From assembly GCF_006152115.1 (NCBI RefSeq), contig NZ_VDFU01000014.1, positions 1 to 64,000 of the forward strand: a stretch of 64,000 nt of DNA, read 5' to 3'. The DNA is from Rubellimicrobium rubrum (lineage in GTDB: Bacteria; Pseudomonadota; Alphaproteobacteria; Rhodobacterales; Rhodobacteraceae). Both the position numbers and the translations under genes were made by a program. The notes below the pieces were generated by a model. That model was not told the origin of the DNA. It was given only the letters and a program-made list of their open reading frames with translations, and ran no database searches. Shown here piece by piece: positions 5,460 through 49,601 of the stretch (within the stretch, counting starts at the first letter, position 1; each line of letters begins with the position of its first letter).

Positions 5460-5820
5460 GACCGATATGTAGGCAGGCCATGTCGTTCGTTCATCCCCTC
5501 TGACGGCGAGCAGTGAAACTTCTGACCCGGCGGCCTCCAGGCAGGAGCGGCACGCAGGAACGGGCGGGACCGGGGCGCGGGCCGGTCGCAGCGGAGCGCG
5601 GCATCGCCTGGATGGAACAGGGAGCCTGAGACCAGTGAAGATGTGGCGCGGCAACCACCAGAGGGGCTGAACGAAGCCACGACGCCCGAGTGCGACCCAA
5701 GGGCGGTCTGCCCAGAACAGCGCGATCCTGACCAGGATTCGCATGTTGCCGAGGGACGGAGCACAGTGTTCCACTCTGTGCTTTCAATCTGAGCGCCGAA
5801 GGGACGTCATTCTTCGGCTT
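5460..5820. other. Intergenic, no gene seen
   Basis: No frame here looks coding on either strand. The only structure found is a 7-base inverted repeat, AGCACAG at 5760-5766 with CTGTGCT at 5776-5782, followed by TTTC. It could be a weak plus-strand terminator, but no upstream plus-strand gene was found. Confidence 0.5.
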
Positions 5821-5874
5821 ATGCTGCACGTGCATAGCGGATCTGCAGCACTGTCCGTTGTGCACGTGCAGCAT
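5821..5874. repeat. 14-base perfect inverted repeat upstream of the small RNA
   Basis: ATGCTGCACGTGCA at 5821-5834 is exactly mirrored by TGCACGTGCAGCAT at 5861-5874, with 26 bases between. Each arm also contains the self-complementary TGCACGTGCA, and similarity extends inward (A.CGG in both). The layout looks like two binding sites for a dimeric regulator about 40 bases apart, or a cruciform. It lies just upstream of the CCTCCTCCC hairpins. Confidence 0.75.
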
Positions 5875-5883
5875 TAGCGCTAA
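5874..5883. promoter_or_regulatory. LacI-family-like operator palindrome
   Basis: TTAGCGCTAA is a perfect 10-base palindrome with the central CG typical of LacI/GalR-family operators. It abuts the right arm of the inverted repeat and precedes the first hairpin of the small RNA by about 15 bases. No LacI-family gene or sugar operon is present in the window, so the assignment is by pattern only. Confidence 0.45.
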
Positions 5884-5889
5884 CTTCCA

Positions 5890-6026
5890 CTCACACGATG
5901 TGATGGGCCATCCTCCTCCCGGCCTGATCACACACTGTATCGGATCGGTCGTTCTCTCCTCCTCCCTGAACGGTCTCTACCGAACCAAGGCGGCGCTCCT
6001 CCTCCCGGAGCTGCCGCCTTTTTTCT
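5890..6026 (+). ncRNA. CcsR / cuckoo-type small RNA with three CCUCCUCCC hairpin loops
   Basis: The motif CCTCCTCCC occurs exactly three times, at 5912-5920, 5958-5966 and 5998-6006, each time in the loop of a hairpin. Hairpin 1 pairs TGTGAT (5899-5904) and GGCC (5906-5909) with GGCC (5921-5924) and ATCACA (5927-5932). Hairpin 2 pairs CGTTC (5950-5954) with GAACG (5968-5972). Hairpin 3 is an intrinsic terminator. Loops of this anti-Shine-Dalgarno sequence define the CcsR1-4 RNAs of Rhodobacter sphaeroides and the wider cuckoo family, which are stress-induced. Described members, as I recall, have two such loops and sit downstream of a DUF1127 gene; here there are three and no DUF1127 gene is adjacent. 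The 5' end is an estimate. Confidence 0.8.
5989..6026 (+). terminator. Rho-independent terminator of the small RNA
   Basis: GGCGGC plus GCTCC (5989-5999) pairs with GGAGC plus GCCGCC (6007-6018, one bulged T) and is followed by TTTTTTCTT. The loop carries the third CCTCCTCCC. Confidence 0.9.
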
Positions 6027-7069
6027 TGTTCCGTTTCAGGTTTTCTCACGGGTGGGATGCGAGTCTTCCCTGTCGCCAAGGGTTCAGCATTCGCTGCGCG
6101 GGGTTGTCCATCTGTATGCCCGAAGAACGGATCAGAGTACGGGCAGAGTCTCTTCCCCACCCATACCCGATCAGGATGGTCCTGCGGATGCGGGCCCGGG
6201 TCCATGATGGTCTACATAGAGCAGAGTCCCCACGCCATTCGGCGACTTGGCGCCTGACCCTGTGCTGCCCGACAACGCCGCCAGATAGGAAGCAGATAGC
6301 TGCAAGGCTGTCGCCAGCGCATCGAGTCGATCCCTCCACATCAGACACGACCCCCGGCCCGGGTCGACTGATGGGACGTGAGGGATTGGCTCTGAACCCG
6401 CTGGCCGCTCCCTTGGAGTAGAGCCACGACTCCGCGCGTTGAACTCCACTCGGCCGCCTCTCAGAATTTGAAGATATGGGCAACTGCTAGACAGCCGCGC
6501 ACGGCTTCCATGACCGGTCCAGGTCTGACTTGGGAACTTTGAAAGGGGCGCCTCGTGGCTCGAGCCCTGCTTCTCAAGGAACAGCCCGCGGCTCAGCTAC
6601 CATGGCCGAAAACTATTTCAACACGCTGGATGGTGGATTGGGGCGCTTGCTTCCAATTCCTAAGCGTGGGGCCAACCACTGACGTTCCAGGCGGGCTCCC
6701 CATAGAACTCGGTTCGCTTCGAGCCAAGGTGGACAGAACTTGAACGTCTGTGCCGATGCTCGCTCTCAAGATAGAGGCACGTGCCAGCCCAATCGATAGC
6801 ATGCATGTCCGGGTCCATGCTGTTGGTCGCCCAAGACCACGGGCCACTCGCGACTTGGTCCTCGAACACGAACGTCGCGCCGCATGGCTGGGCCTGTCGG
6901 CTGAAATCTGTCGCGTCATCCGAGCTTCGGTGGCGACGCAAAATGCTGTTCATAGGGTACGCTGCGGCGGCAGGAACACGCGCCAGGCGCCGTTCAGCCA
7001 CAAGATGTCGCCTTGCTGCTTCCCAAGGGTCAGGGCGCTTGCTAGGACCTTTCGAAACATAGGGAACAG
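6027..7069. other. About 1 kb without a recognisable gene
   Basis: Open frames on both strands here are short, overlap one another and have no family resemblance. A minus-strand frame around 6660-7001 contains FVFEDQVASGPWSWATNS, which looks slightly more protein-like than its neighbours but could not be assigned. No terminal repeats, tRNA or CRISPR were found. The segment may be decayed accessory DNA, the 3' flank of the small RNA locus, or the leader of sbtA. Confidence 0.5.
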
Positions 7070-8050
7070 ATGGACGGCATCCTTTCGCTTGCGGCGGCCA
7101 ACCTTGGCTCGCCTATCATCCTGAGCTTCGTTTTGGGCCTTTCGGCGGCTCTGGCGCGGTCGGACCTCTCGGTTCCCGAAGCGGCGGCCAAGACGCTCTC
7201 GCTGTATCTGCTGTTCTCCATCGGCTTCAAGGGCGGCGCGTCGGTTGCGGCGCACGGCCTGGATGTCCGGCTCGGCGCGGCGGTGCTGGCCGGGGTCGTG
7301 TTGTCCTTCGGGCTGCCTTTCGTGGCTTTTGGTCTGCTGCGTGTCATGACCACCCTGTCCCGGATCGATGCAGCGGCCGTTGCCGCTCATTATGGCTCGA
7401 TCAGCATCGTGACTTTCGTGGCAGCGACCTCGGTCGTCGCCGGGCGTGGGCTCGAGGCCGAAGGCTACATGGTGGCCGTCGCCGCCGCCATGGAAGCGCC
7501 GGCGATCCTGTCGGCCCTTTGGATCGCTTCGCGTGGCGGAGAACGGACCGATGCCGAGCCTGACCTATGGCGGGAGATCCTGCTCAACGGGTCCATCGTC
7601 CTCCTGATCGGCTCTTTCGCGATCGGGACCATCACCGGAGAGGATGGCCTGGCCCGGATCGAAAGCTTCATCGTGGCACCGTTCCAGGGTGTGCTTTGCC
7701 TGTTCCTGCTCGACATGGGCCTGGTCGCCGGACGTGGCCTGCGGGACCAGCGGGCCGCATTGCGACCTGGGGCCGTGGCTTTCGGCGTGGCGATGCCGCT
7801 CATCGGGGGCACCCTCGGCTTGGGCTTCGCTCTGTTGATCGGGTTGTCGCAGGGCGGCGCGGCCTTGTTGGCGACGCTTGCCGCCTCGGCCAGCTACATC
7901 GCGGTACCGGCCGCCATGCGGGTGGCCCTGCCTGAGGCGAATCCATCGGTGTATCTGACCCTGTCGCTCGGGGTGACCTTTCCGTTCAACCTGACGGTGG
8001 GCATCCCCATATACGTGGCTGCCGCCACAACCCTTGTCGGAGCGTCATGA
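7070..8050 (+). CDS. sbtA: SbtA-family sodium-dependent bicarbonate permease
   Basis: A 326-residue integral membrane protein with about ten hydrophobic segments, belonging to the SbtA family (PF05982). Recognisable stretches include SIGFKGGASVA, AAHYGSISIVTFVAATS and PAAMRVALPEANPSVYL. SbtA takes up bicarbonate with sodium at the inner membrane; here it may supply carboxylases rather than a carboxysome. The gene overlaps sbtB by four bases (ATGA), so the two are translationally coupled. The ATG at 7070 follows AGGGAA. Confidence 0.9.
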   Translation: MDGILSLAAANLGSPIILSFVLGLSAALARSDLSVPEAAAKTLSLYLLFSIGFKGGASVAAHGLDVRLGAAVLAGVVLSFGLPFVAFGLLRVMTTLSRIDAAAVAAHYGSISIVTFVAATSVVAGRGLEAEGYMVAVAAAMEAPAILSALWIASRGGERTDAEPDLWREILLNGSIVLLIGSFAIGTITGEDGLARIESFIVAPFQGVLCLFLLDMGLVAGRGLRDQRAALRPGAVAFGVAMPLIGGTLGLGFALLIGLSQGGAALLATLAASASYIAVPAAMRVALPEANPSVYLTLSLGVTFPFNLTVGIPIYVAAATTLVGAS

Positions 8051-8358
8051 TGCAGACCCACAGGGCCAAGCGTGTCGAGATCGTCATAGAAGCCCCACTG
8101 GAACGCCGGCTGACGGAAGCGCTCGAGAAAGCGGGCGTCACCGGCTATACGATCCTTCCCGTCCTGGGCGGAGGAGGCCGTTCGGGTCACTGGAGTCGCG
8201 AGGGGCAGGTCGGCCGCTCCGGCATGGTGGCGGTGATCTGCCTGATCCGGCCAGAGCGGCTGGAGCCCCTCTTGGAGGCGGCGTTCGCGGTGGTGGAGCG
8301 GCATATCGGCGTGGTCAGCATCACCGACTGCGAGGTGCTGCGGGCCGAGCGGTTCTGA
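8047..8358 (+). CDS. SbtB-like PII signalling protein
   Basis: A 103-residue PII-superfamily protein. It opens with KRVEIVIEAPLERRLTEALEKAGVTG and carries YTILPVLGGGGRSG where the T-loop base lies, then ends in SITDCEVL. SbtB binds adenylate nucleotides and closes SbtA in cyanobacteria. The gene starts inside the stop codon of sbtA. The C-terminal redox Cys pair of some cyanobacterial SbtB proteins is absent. A branched inverted repeat (GAGAAGG at 8357 with CCTTCTC at 8392, and AGCGG/CCGCT within) begins at its stop codon, without a T tract. Confidence 0.82.
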   Translation: MMQTHRAKRVEIVIEAPLERRLTEALEKAGVTGYTILPVLGGGGRSGHWSREGQVGRSGMVAVICLIRPERLEPLLEAAFAVVERHIGVVSITDCEVLRAERF

Positions 8359-21523: not shown

Positions 21524-22005
21524 CGGCTGTCCAGCGGACCGGCCATCAGATCCTCGATGAACAGCGACAGGAGCTGGGGCCGACCCGTAACCCCCGCCTT
21601 TCGATAGATCGCGGCGGTCTGGGCCTTGACCGTCCCTTCGCTCGTCTGGCGAATCCGTGCGATGTCCTGGGTAGACATTCCCTTGATGGCGAACAGCGCC
21701 ACGTCCCGTTCGGCAGGGGTCAGCCCCCAAGCCGCGAACTTTTCGTCCAGAAGCTCCATGAAGGCACCAGAGGCGGCGCGCAGCTTGGCCTCGGCCTCGC
21801 GGGTGCGGATCTGGCTCCGGCGCAGGGCCAGCCCGCCCAGCACCGTCCCCAGGACAAGCCCCACAGCCGCCCCGATTTCCGTGATCTCGTGCACGACCCA
21901 GGCCACGGGTGCCACGCCCAGAACGGAAAAACCTATGTTGGCAACGAACAGAACGGCCGACACCGCCTGCACCGCCAGAATGGCGACAACACCCGACTGC
22001 TTCAC
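21508..22005 (-). CDS. Membrane-anchored LuxR-type transcriptional regulator
   Basis: A protein of 165 residues. Two membrane segments (VVAILAVQAVSAVLFVANIG and EIGAAVGLVLGTVLGGLAL) and a short coiled linker precede a LuxR-type helix-turn-helix: LTPAERDVALFAIKGMSTQD then TSEGTVKAQTAAIYRKAGV. It lacks a receiver domain, so signalling probably comes through the membrane part. The GTG at 22005 follows GGGAGGAGCGCC and is preferred over a TTG at 22038. This small type is common in Rhodobacterales; its targets are unknown. Confidence 0.82.
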   Translation of the reverse strand: MKQSGVVAILAVQAVSAVLFVANIGFSVLGVAPVAWVVHEITEIGAAVGLVLGTVLGGLALRRSQIRTREAEAKLRAASGAFMELLDEKFAAWGLTPAERDVALFAIKGMSTQDIARIRQTSEGTVKAQTAAIYRKAGVTGRPQLLSLFIEDLMAGPLDSRHSRA

Positions 22006-34945: not shown

Positions 34946-34991
34946 TGCTCCATTAAGGTCGCCCGTCACGCCAGGAAGCCGTTGTGACGAG
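34946..34991 (-). promoter_or_regulatory. SAM/SAH riboswitch
   Basis: On the minus strand P1 is CGTCAC/GTGACG, enclosing AACGGCTTCCTGGC, and after a short linker comes ATGGAGCA. This matches the compact SAM/SAH riboswitch of Rhodobacterales almost base for base. GCUUC can pair with GGAGC, forming the pseudoknot that hides the metK ribosome site. The element fills the space between lnt and metK, so it can act on either a readthrough or a separate transcript. Confidence 0.93.
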
Positions 34992-35003
34992 GGTCCGTCT
35001 TGG

Positions 35004-48752: not shown

Positions 48753-49601
48753 ATGACACGCAGTCCGATCCTGGCGCTCGCGCTTGCCGCGCTTGCCGCG
48801 CCTGTAATCGCTCAGGACGCCACACGTCCGGCCGAGAACCAGCCCCAGACCGAAAGCCAGGAAACCCGTCCGACCAACCAGACGAGCCAGGAAACCACGG
48901 AAGGCCTGACCGAGCAGCAGGCCGCTGCCGACCAACCCGAGGACGCGATGCCCGCCGGGCAGGAAAGCCAGGGTGGAACCGGTGGCCTCGTGGACGCAGA
49001 GGGCAACGAGATCGGCAACGTCTCCGTTTCGGCGACCGCCTCGGGACATGCCTTGGTCCTGGTCAACGCGGAAGGCCTGCCCGAAGGCATCCACGGCATG
49101 CACCTGCACCTTGTAGGGGCCTGCGAAGGGCCAAGCTTCGAATCGGCCGGGGAACACATCTCGGGTGGGAAGGAGCACGGGGTCATGACGGACACCGGCC
49201 CTCATCCGGGCGACATGCCCAATGCCCAGGTGGGCGCGGATGGGGTGCTGAACCTGGAAACCTTTGCCATCGGCCTGAGCATGGACATGGTGTTCGACGA
49301 GGATGGCAGCGCGCTGATCATCCATGCCGACCCGGACGACTACACGACGCAGCCGGGCGGCAACTCGGGGGACCGGATCGCTTGCGCCGTCATTCAAGCC
49401 GCACCTGGCACCATGAGCGATGAGACCACCGACGCCTCGGTCGTAGGGGGCGAGGCGGCCGGGGGCGACCTGGACGAGGACGTTCAGGACGGCAACGAAG
49501 GCGCGCAAGCCCAGGACCCCGCGCTTGAGGACGGGGCCGAAGCCCAGCAGGACGAAGCGCAGGAAGGACAAGGCGACAACGGCGAAGCCGCCTCGGAGTG
49601 A
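48753..49601 (+). CDS. sodC: Copper/zinc superoxide dismutase-like protein with acidic tails
   Basis: A 282-residue exported protein with signal MTRSPILALALAALAAPVIA. A ~55-residue Gln/Glu/Thr-rich linker precedes the SOD domain. Metal ligands are in GIHGMHLHLVGAC, ESAGEHISGG, GPHPGDMPN and ALIIHADPDDY, and the disulfide Cys pair is GACEG with RIACAVI. A ~60-residue Asp/Glu/Gln-rich tail follows, which is not part of usual SodC. Periplasmic superoxide removal is expected. CGGAGGAGG precedes the ATG. Confidence 0.88.
   Translation: MTRSPILALALAALAAPVIAQDATRPAENQPQTESQETRPTNQTSQETTEGLTEQQAAADQPEDAMPAGQESQGGTGGLVDAEGNEIGNVSVSATASGHALVLVNAEGLPEGIHGMHLHLVGACEGPSFESAGEHISGGKEHGVMTDTGPHPGDMPNAQVGADGVLNLETFAIGLSMDMVFDEDGSALIIHADPDDYTTQPGGNSGDRIACAVIQAAPGTMSDETTDASVVGGEAAGGDLDEDVQDGNEGAQAQDPALEDGAEAQQDEAQEGQGDNGEAASE

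Follow-up and report, generated by a model that had tools for sequence, protein, structure and literature searches.

A three-hairpin anti-Shine-Dalgarno RNA of Rubellimicrobium rubrum is of CcsR/cuckoo type and may be under joint LysR-type and LacI-family control

The locus at 5821-6026 of the window, the 64,000-nucleotide stretch of Rubellimicrobium rubrum contig NZ_VDFU01000014.1 analysed here, raises two questions: what kind of RNA it encodes and what controls that RNA. A first-pass annotation, made from the sequence alone, described a CcsR/cuckoo-type small RNA without an adjoining DUF1127 gene, placed below a palindromic control region. The class assignment is borne out, and the feature is a predicted small RNA of this known kind. 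The control region looks like a new part of the system.

Three exact copies of CCTCCTCCC lie on the plus strand at 5912-5920, 5958-5966 and 5998-6006. Both strands of the window hold seven sites in total against 1.79 expected, and none of 100 shuffles reached seven, which rules out a chance origin of the motifs. The stretch 5894-6025 folds at -50.6 kcal/mol (z = -5.25), a stability equalled by none of 200 shuffles. Motif positions and fold agree with the three consecutive hairpins that had been claimed, but the motif does not lie wholly in a loop in hairpin 3, where its first two C are paired in the minimum-energy fold. The accompanying claim that the last hairpin is the terminator is supported by a run of six T (6019-6024) directly after its strong bulged stem, but not by a simple terminator scan, which called no terminator at the RNA locus, probably because of the bulge. 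An alignment of 12 related RNAs, which includes the near-identical copy on host contig C47, has 94.9% of its cells paired. Changes on both sides of a pair occur in 11 of 25 pairs (25 cells) and in all three hairpins, with one of 500 shuffles as high, and the covariation score of 0.344 was matched by none of 500; these figures refer to a structure predicted from the same alignment. Further pair types in the alignment did not exceed the shuffles (296/500).

A protein-coding reading of the locus was rejected, as the frame at 5858-6421 has no Pfam match. The absence of a DUF1127 gene beside the RNA also holds: none of the seven genome matches (E up to 0.001) is on the window contig, C6, and a comparison of six nearby frames with Pfam returned no DUF1127. 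Possible target sites within the window are GGAGGAGG before ATG frames at 48753 (plus strand) and 40358 (minus strand) and GGGAGGAG, which precedes a minus-strand GTG frame at 22005; a further site, before a TTG frame at 2525, falls within another gene. Elsewhere in the window, genes for a bicarbonate transporter of SbtA type and for a PII-like protein occupy 7070-8358, downstream of the RNA, and a SAM/SAH riboswitch at 34946-34993 on the minus strand scores 55.7 bits, above its Rfam cut-off.

Table 1. Predicted features of the RNA locus and its control region, in window coordinates
Feature	Position	Strand	Basis or remark
Duplicated unit (control region and RNA)	5821-6029	+	207/209 identical to L003:2597-2804 (C47 ~194596-194803)
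Inverted repeat	arms 5817-5841 / 5854-5878	.	25 nt, 88% complementary; holds both LysR-type boxes
LysR-type box 1, TGC-N7-GCA (T-N11-A)	5822-5834	+	-72 to -60 of the predicted start
-35 element TTGTGC (predicted)	5858-5863	+	in all 19 loci (TTGTGCA being the selection criterion); fits the RpoHI/RpoHII logo
LysR-type box 2, TGC-N7-GCA, over -35	5861-5873	+	5861-5874 is an exact TGCA-N6-GCAT
Palindrome TTAGCGCTAA, candidate LacI-family (CceR-type) operator	5874-5883	.	overlaps the -10 element
-10 element CTAACT (predicted, -14 to -9)	5880-5885	+	logo positions C-14, T-13, A-12, T-9
Small RNA	predicted start ~5894, end in T run 6019-6024	+	fold z-score, Rfam ar14 match
Hairpin 1	5899-5932	+	RNA folding, covariation; CCUCCUCCC at 5912-5920 lies in the loop
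Hairpin 2	5942-5986	+	RNA folding, covariation; CCUCCUCCC at 5958-5966 lies in the loop
Hairpin 3 and T run (likely intrinsic terminator)	5987-6024	+	stem 5987-6020; CCUCCUCCC at 5998-6006

Among Rfam families, the best match is ar14 (RF02344) over 5893-6025, with 40.4 bits against a gathering threshold of 58.8; CcsR1 (RF02791) scores 16.6 bits against 65.3. The covariance search proposed in the first-pass annotation thus leaves the RNA below the cut-offs of both families, yet the ar14 match is significant, with an E-value of 4e-6 on 501 bases and 8.8e-6 on the whole genome. A survey of 86 genomes of the class with the ar14 model gave matches in seven, none above the cut-off, and the other families represented were too few for a promoter comparison. 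Three-hairpin CCUCCUCCC RNAs without DUF1127 are already known, from a different order, as alpha-r14/NfeR1, and SmelA075 and SmelA099 carry three and four such hairpins (PMC3927594, PMC10746234, PMC7143759, all in excerpt). The lack of a DUF1127 gene was accordingly rejected as the mark of a new class, and the impression that three hairpins without this gene are unusual was mistaken; the host itself also holds a DUF1127-CcsR operon.

The window RNA shares with alpha-r14/NfeR1 (Smr14C2, RF02344) of Sinorhizobium meliloti the three CCUCCUCCC hairpins and the presence of several copies per genome (PMC10746234, PMC7143759, excerpts), and its upstream box recalls the TGCA-N6-GCAT (LsrB) site of NfeR1 at -72 to -60 (PMC10746234, excerpt). 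It differs in its score below the 58.8 cut-off, in stems that match those of local CcsR hairpins, and in a promoter with an additional second box over the -35 element and a palindrome of the zwf/edd type. A search for the NtrC site of alpha-r14, TGC-N11-GCA at about -116 to -101, found only TGC-N11-GCG, which has one mismatch and lies at 5779-5795, beyond the limits of the duplicated unit; according to the available part of PMC10746234, this site is limited to plant symbionts. With CcsR1-4 and ccaF1 (DUF1127) of the Rhodobacter sphaeroides CIN1 locus (RF02791), the RNA has the loop motif in common, and its hairpins and promoter signature recur in the DUF1127-CcsR operons of Rubellimicrobium. 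Unlike CcsR1-4, it is a single three-hairpin unit with no adjoining DUF1127 gene and a score far under the family threshold. The cuckoo RNAs SmelA075/SmelA099 also combine a varying number of anti-Shine-Dalgarno hairpin modules with multiple copies per genome (PMC3927594, excerpt), and the stand-alone RNAs found here likewise occur in several copies, with varying module number, variable stems and conserved loops.

Stand-alone three-motif copies are present in the host in the window and on contigs C47 and C5, and the genome also has a DUF1127 gene with a CCUCCUCCC hairpin array at C13:277522-278043. The unit shared by the window and C47 starts at box 1 and ends just past the terminator, and the flanks of the two copies are unrelated. 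Within the genus, five of eight genomes, the host included, have stand-alone copies, and R. aerolatum carries four three-hairpin copies and a degenerate one with two of three motifs exact. Copies cluster by genome (100/100 for the host's own pair and 100/97 for the R. aerolatum four) in a tree that omits L033, which is degenerate and lacks TTGTGCA, and the two Pseudoruegeria RNAs; this pattern fits recent duplication or gene conversion. Neither C47 nor any of the other ten loci shares neighbours with the window. Two R. aerolatum copies, on contigs C13 and C14 of that genome, have neighbouring frames in common and are therefore taken to be part of a more extensive duplication; the pairs L001/L039, L001/L046 and L044/L046 likewise have a few frames in common.

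The 11 stand-alone RNAs of Rubellimicrobium show 60-85% identity to the final three hairpins of the CcsR arrays in six genomes and 58-67% to those of the array in genome G001, values that cover the RNA part and are raised by the common loops. Identity to the array of the same genome is 82-85% for the R. aerolatum copies and 73% for the window RNA. The distance from TTGTGC to the first TCCTCCC is 50-57 bases in the 11 stand-alone loci against 339-427 in the seven Rubellimicrobium arrays, and the stand-alone promoter resembles a CcsR array promoter from which the frame and the earlier hairpins have been removed. Because of this likeness in hairpins and the array-type promoter, descent from a CcsR operon appears likelier than vertical descent from alpha-r14.

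The predicted start near 5894 was set from the RpoH logo, with TTG at -36, and TTG at -36 to -34 agrees with the published RpoHI/RpoHII logo; a sigma-70 consensus scan called no promoter at the RNA locus. The host has two RpoH paralogues, one above and one below the model cut-off, and the CcsR operon of R. sphaeroides is described as having an RpoHI/RpoHII promoter (PMC10253847, excerpt). Use of the window promoter by these factors is possible. The first-pass annotation had proposed a dedicated regulator "instead of or besides" the heat-shock sigma factors; since the promoter positions fit the logo, "besides" is the more likely of the two.

Both upstream repeats that had been described are present, a 14-base inverted repeat at 5821-5834/5861-5874 and TTAGCGCTAA at 5874-5883. 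Their reading as dedicated, perhaps LacI-type control stands in part: TTAGCGCTAA also occurs upstream of zwf and edd, but the inverted repeat is best read, from its sequence, as two LysR-type boxes common to the DUF1127-CcsR operon. The repeat was rejected as a LacI operator, as its arms recur as independent TGC-N7-GCA boxes with variable inner bases. In the window, one box lies 36 bases before TTGTGC and the other 3 bases after its first base, and the predicted start puts box 1 at the same position as the site bound by LsrB upstream of NfeR1 in S. meliloti (PMC10746234, excerpt).

An upstream box at -36/-37 from TTGTGC is found in 17 of 19 related loci (9 of 11 stand-alone, 8 of 8 DUF1127-CcsR), loci that were chosen by TTGTGCA among matches to window 5815-6032 or entries of a motif list, not by the RNA alone; the matched stretch takes in part of box 1 only for L013, L018, L029 and L031. 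Other TGC-N7-GCA dyads number only three in the 190 positions scanned across these loci. All eight DUF1127-CcsR promoters examined have boxes at -37 and +3, and the inner seven bases vary while the position is kept. The promoter counts omit L033, and the 19-locus count also omits the two Pseudoruegeria RNAs, in which the upstream box is at -24; L019 has an imperfect copy of this box and L027 has none. One locus beside this series, L005 at host C25:285897, is a DUF1127 gene with a similar promoter (one mismatch in box 1) and no CCUCCUCCC hairpins downstream.

Across the family, the exact box pair occurs in 199 of 295 genomes, with a spacing of 24 in 105 and of 23 in 100, and the reversed pattern gave no match in any row of the same 295 genomes. 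TCCTCCC motifs follow in 59 of 61 box-pair promoters read (60 loci, L175 giving two), the exceptions being L125 and L173 with none within 1200 bases, and a DUF1127-like frame follows in 49 of 61, by a narrow regular expression that found no frame in the other 12. On these counts the box pair is a family-wide signature of CcsR/DUF1127 loci. The box-pair loci L158, L162, L175 and L181 resemble stand-alone RNAs; L175 (family genome G306) has two box promoters about 530 bases apart, each with four TCCTCCC motifs and no DUF1127-like frame. Stand-alone two-hairpin CCUCCUCCC RNAs were also seen on five roseobacter-group plasmids (L211-L215), four of them typed as mobilizable; three adjoin a strawberry-notch gene, and ATTGTGCG..GCAGCAT lies upstream in three of five.

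Regulators that could act on such boxes are known from Rhizobiales. LsrB of S. meliloti binds TGCA-N6-GCAT (T-N11-A) in the NfeR1 promoter and activates NfeR1 (PMC10746234, excerpt), and in Brucella the regulator VtlR, with the motif CAATGCAGCCATGCA, is an activator of AbcR2 and of three DUF1127 genes (PMC12595884, excerpt). These circuits diverge, as a study of Agrobacterium VtlR emphasizes; according to the same study, AbcR RNAs of S. meliloti do not respond to LsrB (PMC7486931). The likeness to the LsrB/VtlR regulon lies in the pairing of a LysR-type regulator with small anti-Shine-Dalgarno RNAs and DUF1127 genes. One host protein, encoded at C69:136309-137172 (L111), is clearly nearest to LsrB: it has 45% identity to a trxB-linked homologue and scores 279 bits, where the next reaches 130, its best PDB match is A. 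tumefaciens LsrB (9HH1, E 9.4e-70; next 8.5e-28), and its DNA-binding region is very similar to that of LsrB. An LsrB-grade match (E 2.3e-77 or better) is present in 23 of 23 family genomes. In contrast to rhizobial LsrB, the host gene is away from trxB and the protein contains no cysteine (in the cysteine comparison, 26 of 30 LsrB-like loci were read and four were missed by the regular expression), so a thiol redox switch is unlikely in the host protein, judging by its sequence and neighbourhood. A section title in a 2025 NAR paper (seen in excerpt) calls LsrB unique to Rhizobiales; the homologues of the host family either contradict this or form a sister group. Among the papers listed by a literature search that left out most subscription papers, none named LsrB or VtlR alongside CcsR, and the available main text of the R. 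sphaeroides papers PMC8307010, PMC10673084 and PMC10253847 makes no mention of LysR.

The palindrome points to a different regulator. In the 4.6-Mb genome, TTAGCGCTAA has five sites, namely the window and C47 RNA promoters, one upstream of zwf, one upstream of edd and one at C4:98301, and its reversed control has none. The fifth site (G000:C4:98301, L198) is near a contig end, and the one frame tested there had no family match. In four of four Rhodobacterales regions read, among seven matches listed and from three species (including Pseudorhodobacter and Ketogulonicigenium plasmids), 13 of 14 positions match TGTTAGCGCTAACA upstream of zwf or edd; no site with at least 10 of 14 matches lies in the zwf region of S. 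meliloti. In Rhodobacteraceae, gluconate-6P is sensed by CceR, a LacI-family regulator that in Paracoccus acts as repressor of Zwf, Pgl, Edd and Eda (PMC5507952, PMC11323563, excerpts). The position of TTAGCGCTAA upstream of zwf and edd, which belong to the genes repressed by CceR, suggests by analogy a CceR-type operator, as in the CceR regulon; the accessible portions of these papers mention no RNA target of CceR and do not spell out its motif. The proposed search for the palindrome elsewhere in the genome thus led to zwf and edd, but regular-expression searches found no LacI gene adjoining zwf, edd or the C4 site.

A joined pattern of box 2 and palindrome gave 16 matches in named-genome contigs, seven of them in Rubellimicrobium and Pseudoruegeria; hairpins follow each of these seven, with exact CCTCCTCCC in six and CTCCTCCC in L058, and none of the other nine matches, in unrelated taxa, is followed by such hairpins. 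An operator scan found at least 11 of 14 matches to TGTTAGCGCTAACA in 15 of 59 family promoters, with 44 below, against about 0.2 expected from shuffles, an excess that is an upper bound as shuffling also breaks the overlapping -10 element. Of the stand-alone RNAs of the genus, three (L015, L027 and L028) have no TTAGCGCTAA, and L020 has it 11 bases further downstream. Because the palindrome overlaps the -10 element, part of its conservation may reflect the core promoter.

Four things read directly from the sequences, namely the hairpins, the conservation of the boxes, the sharing of the palindrome and the presence of the LysR-type gene, can be joined in one model, which is on balance the probable one: a stand-alone anti-Shine-Dalgarno RNA derived from a CcsR operon and placed under joint LsrB/VtlR-type and LacI-family (CceR) control. 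Its statements on transcription, binding, direction of regulation, targets and ancestry are deductions. A DUF1127-CcsR operon would have lost its reading frame and earlier hairpins and kept the promoter and the last three hairpins, leaving an RNA that would act in trans, of the CCUCCUCCC (cuckoo) kind. Transcription would proceed from TTGTGC and CTAACT with a start near 5894. Activation would come from an LsrB/VtlR-family LysR-type protein on the paired TGC-N7-GCA boxes and repression from a LacI-family protein, most likely CceR, on TTAGCGCTAA over the -10 element, both roles being deduced from site position. Repression by CceR would be lifted by 6-phosphogluconate. Each of the three anti-Shine-Dalgarno motifs would then mask ribosome-binding sites in target mRNAs and prevent their translation; such silencing is expected by analogy with NfeR1, whose motifs pair at the translation start (PMC10746234, excerpt).

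Several other explanations compete with this model. The RNA could be a stress-induced CcsR-type RNA with an RpoHI/RpoHII promoter only, its repeats being remnants or core-promoter constraint without a dedicated regulator. The agreement of TTG (-36 to -34), C-14, T-13, A-12 and T-9 with the logo and the two host RpoH paralogues, one over and one under the cut-off, speak for this account, which nevertheless seems unlikely: box 1 is not part of the -35 or the -10 element, keeps its position while its inner seven bases vary, and is part of a pair retained in 199 of 295 family genomes. A LacI-family regulator alone, with the 14-base inverted repeat as a second operator, would explain why TTAGCGCTAA is common to zwf and edd; it is very improbable, given that both boxes occur in CcsR promoters without exact TTAGCGCTAA and that the palindrome is missing from three stand-alone RNAs.

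The remaining alternatives concern ancestry and function. A true alpha-r14/NfeR1 orthologue, inherited vertically from a common ancestor with Rhizobiales, would not be a local CcsR derivative, and would account for ar14 as best Rfam match (40.4 bits, E 8.8e-6 on the genome), the three anti-Shine-Dalgarno hairpins, the missing DUF1127 neighbour and a site of LsrB type that, like the one of NfeR1, spans -72 to -60. We regard it as quite unlikely, as the score stays below the gathering threshold, the local CcsR array outscores the RNA on the ar14 model itself (47.5 and 48.9 bits), the stems are like those of local CcsR hairpins and the copies cluster by genome. The C-rich loops might instead serve as a sponge that titrates the DUF1127 protein (CcaF1), or another binder of such loops, off the CcsR precursor. 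CcaF1 binds RNA and brings about the maturation of CcsR RNAs (PMC10253847, excerpt), and the promoter signature common to the stand-alone RNA and the DUF1127 operon implies that the two should be co-produced; this role is an improbable one, set against NfeR1, which has the same loops and silences mRNAs through its anti-Shine-Dalgarno motifs (PMC10746234, excerpt).

The joint-control model extends to a wider proposal, which is put forward tentatively and may well not hold. Rhodobacteraceae anti-Shine-Dalgarno RNAs and their DUF1127 partner would be outputs of a carbon-state circuit, with paired TGC-N7-GCA boxes as sites for an LsrB/VtlR-family activator and, in some of these loci, TTAGCGCTAA as a site for CceR, rather than mainly heat-shock genes. 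In this proposal, sugar catabolism, through 6-phosphogluconate, would open a general translational brake, and promoter-plus-RNA units of about 200 bp would spread in the genome as ready-made modules. The near-identical copies mean that the small RNA has multiplied along with its control region. The CcsR RNAs and DUF1127 proteins of R. sphaeroides have been described as RpoHI/RpoHII-dependent. If the proposal is true, the box pair, which two thirds of the family genomes sampled carry, would tie CcsR/DUF1127 to the LsrB/VtlR circuit of Rhizobiales, and the palindrome of zwf and edd would link some CcsR-type RNAs to central carbon metabolism.
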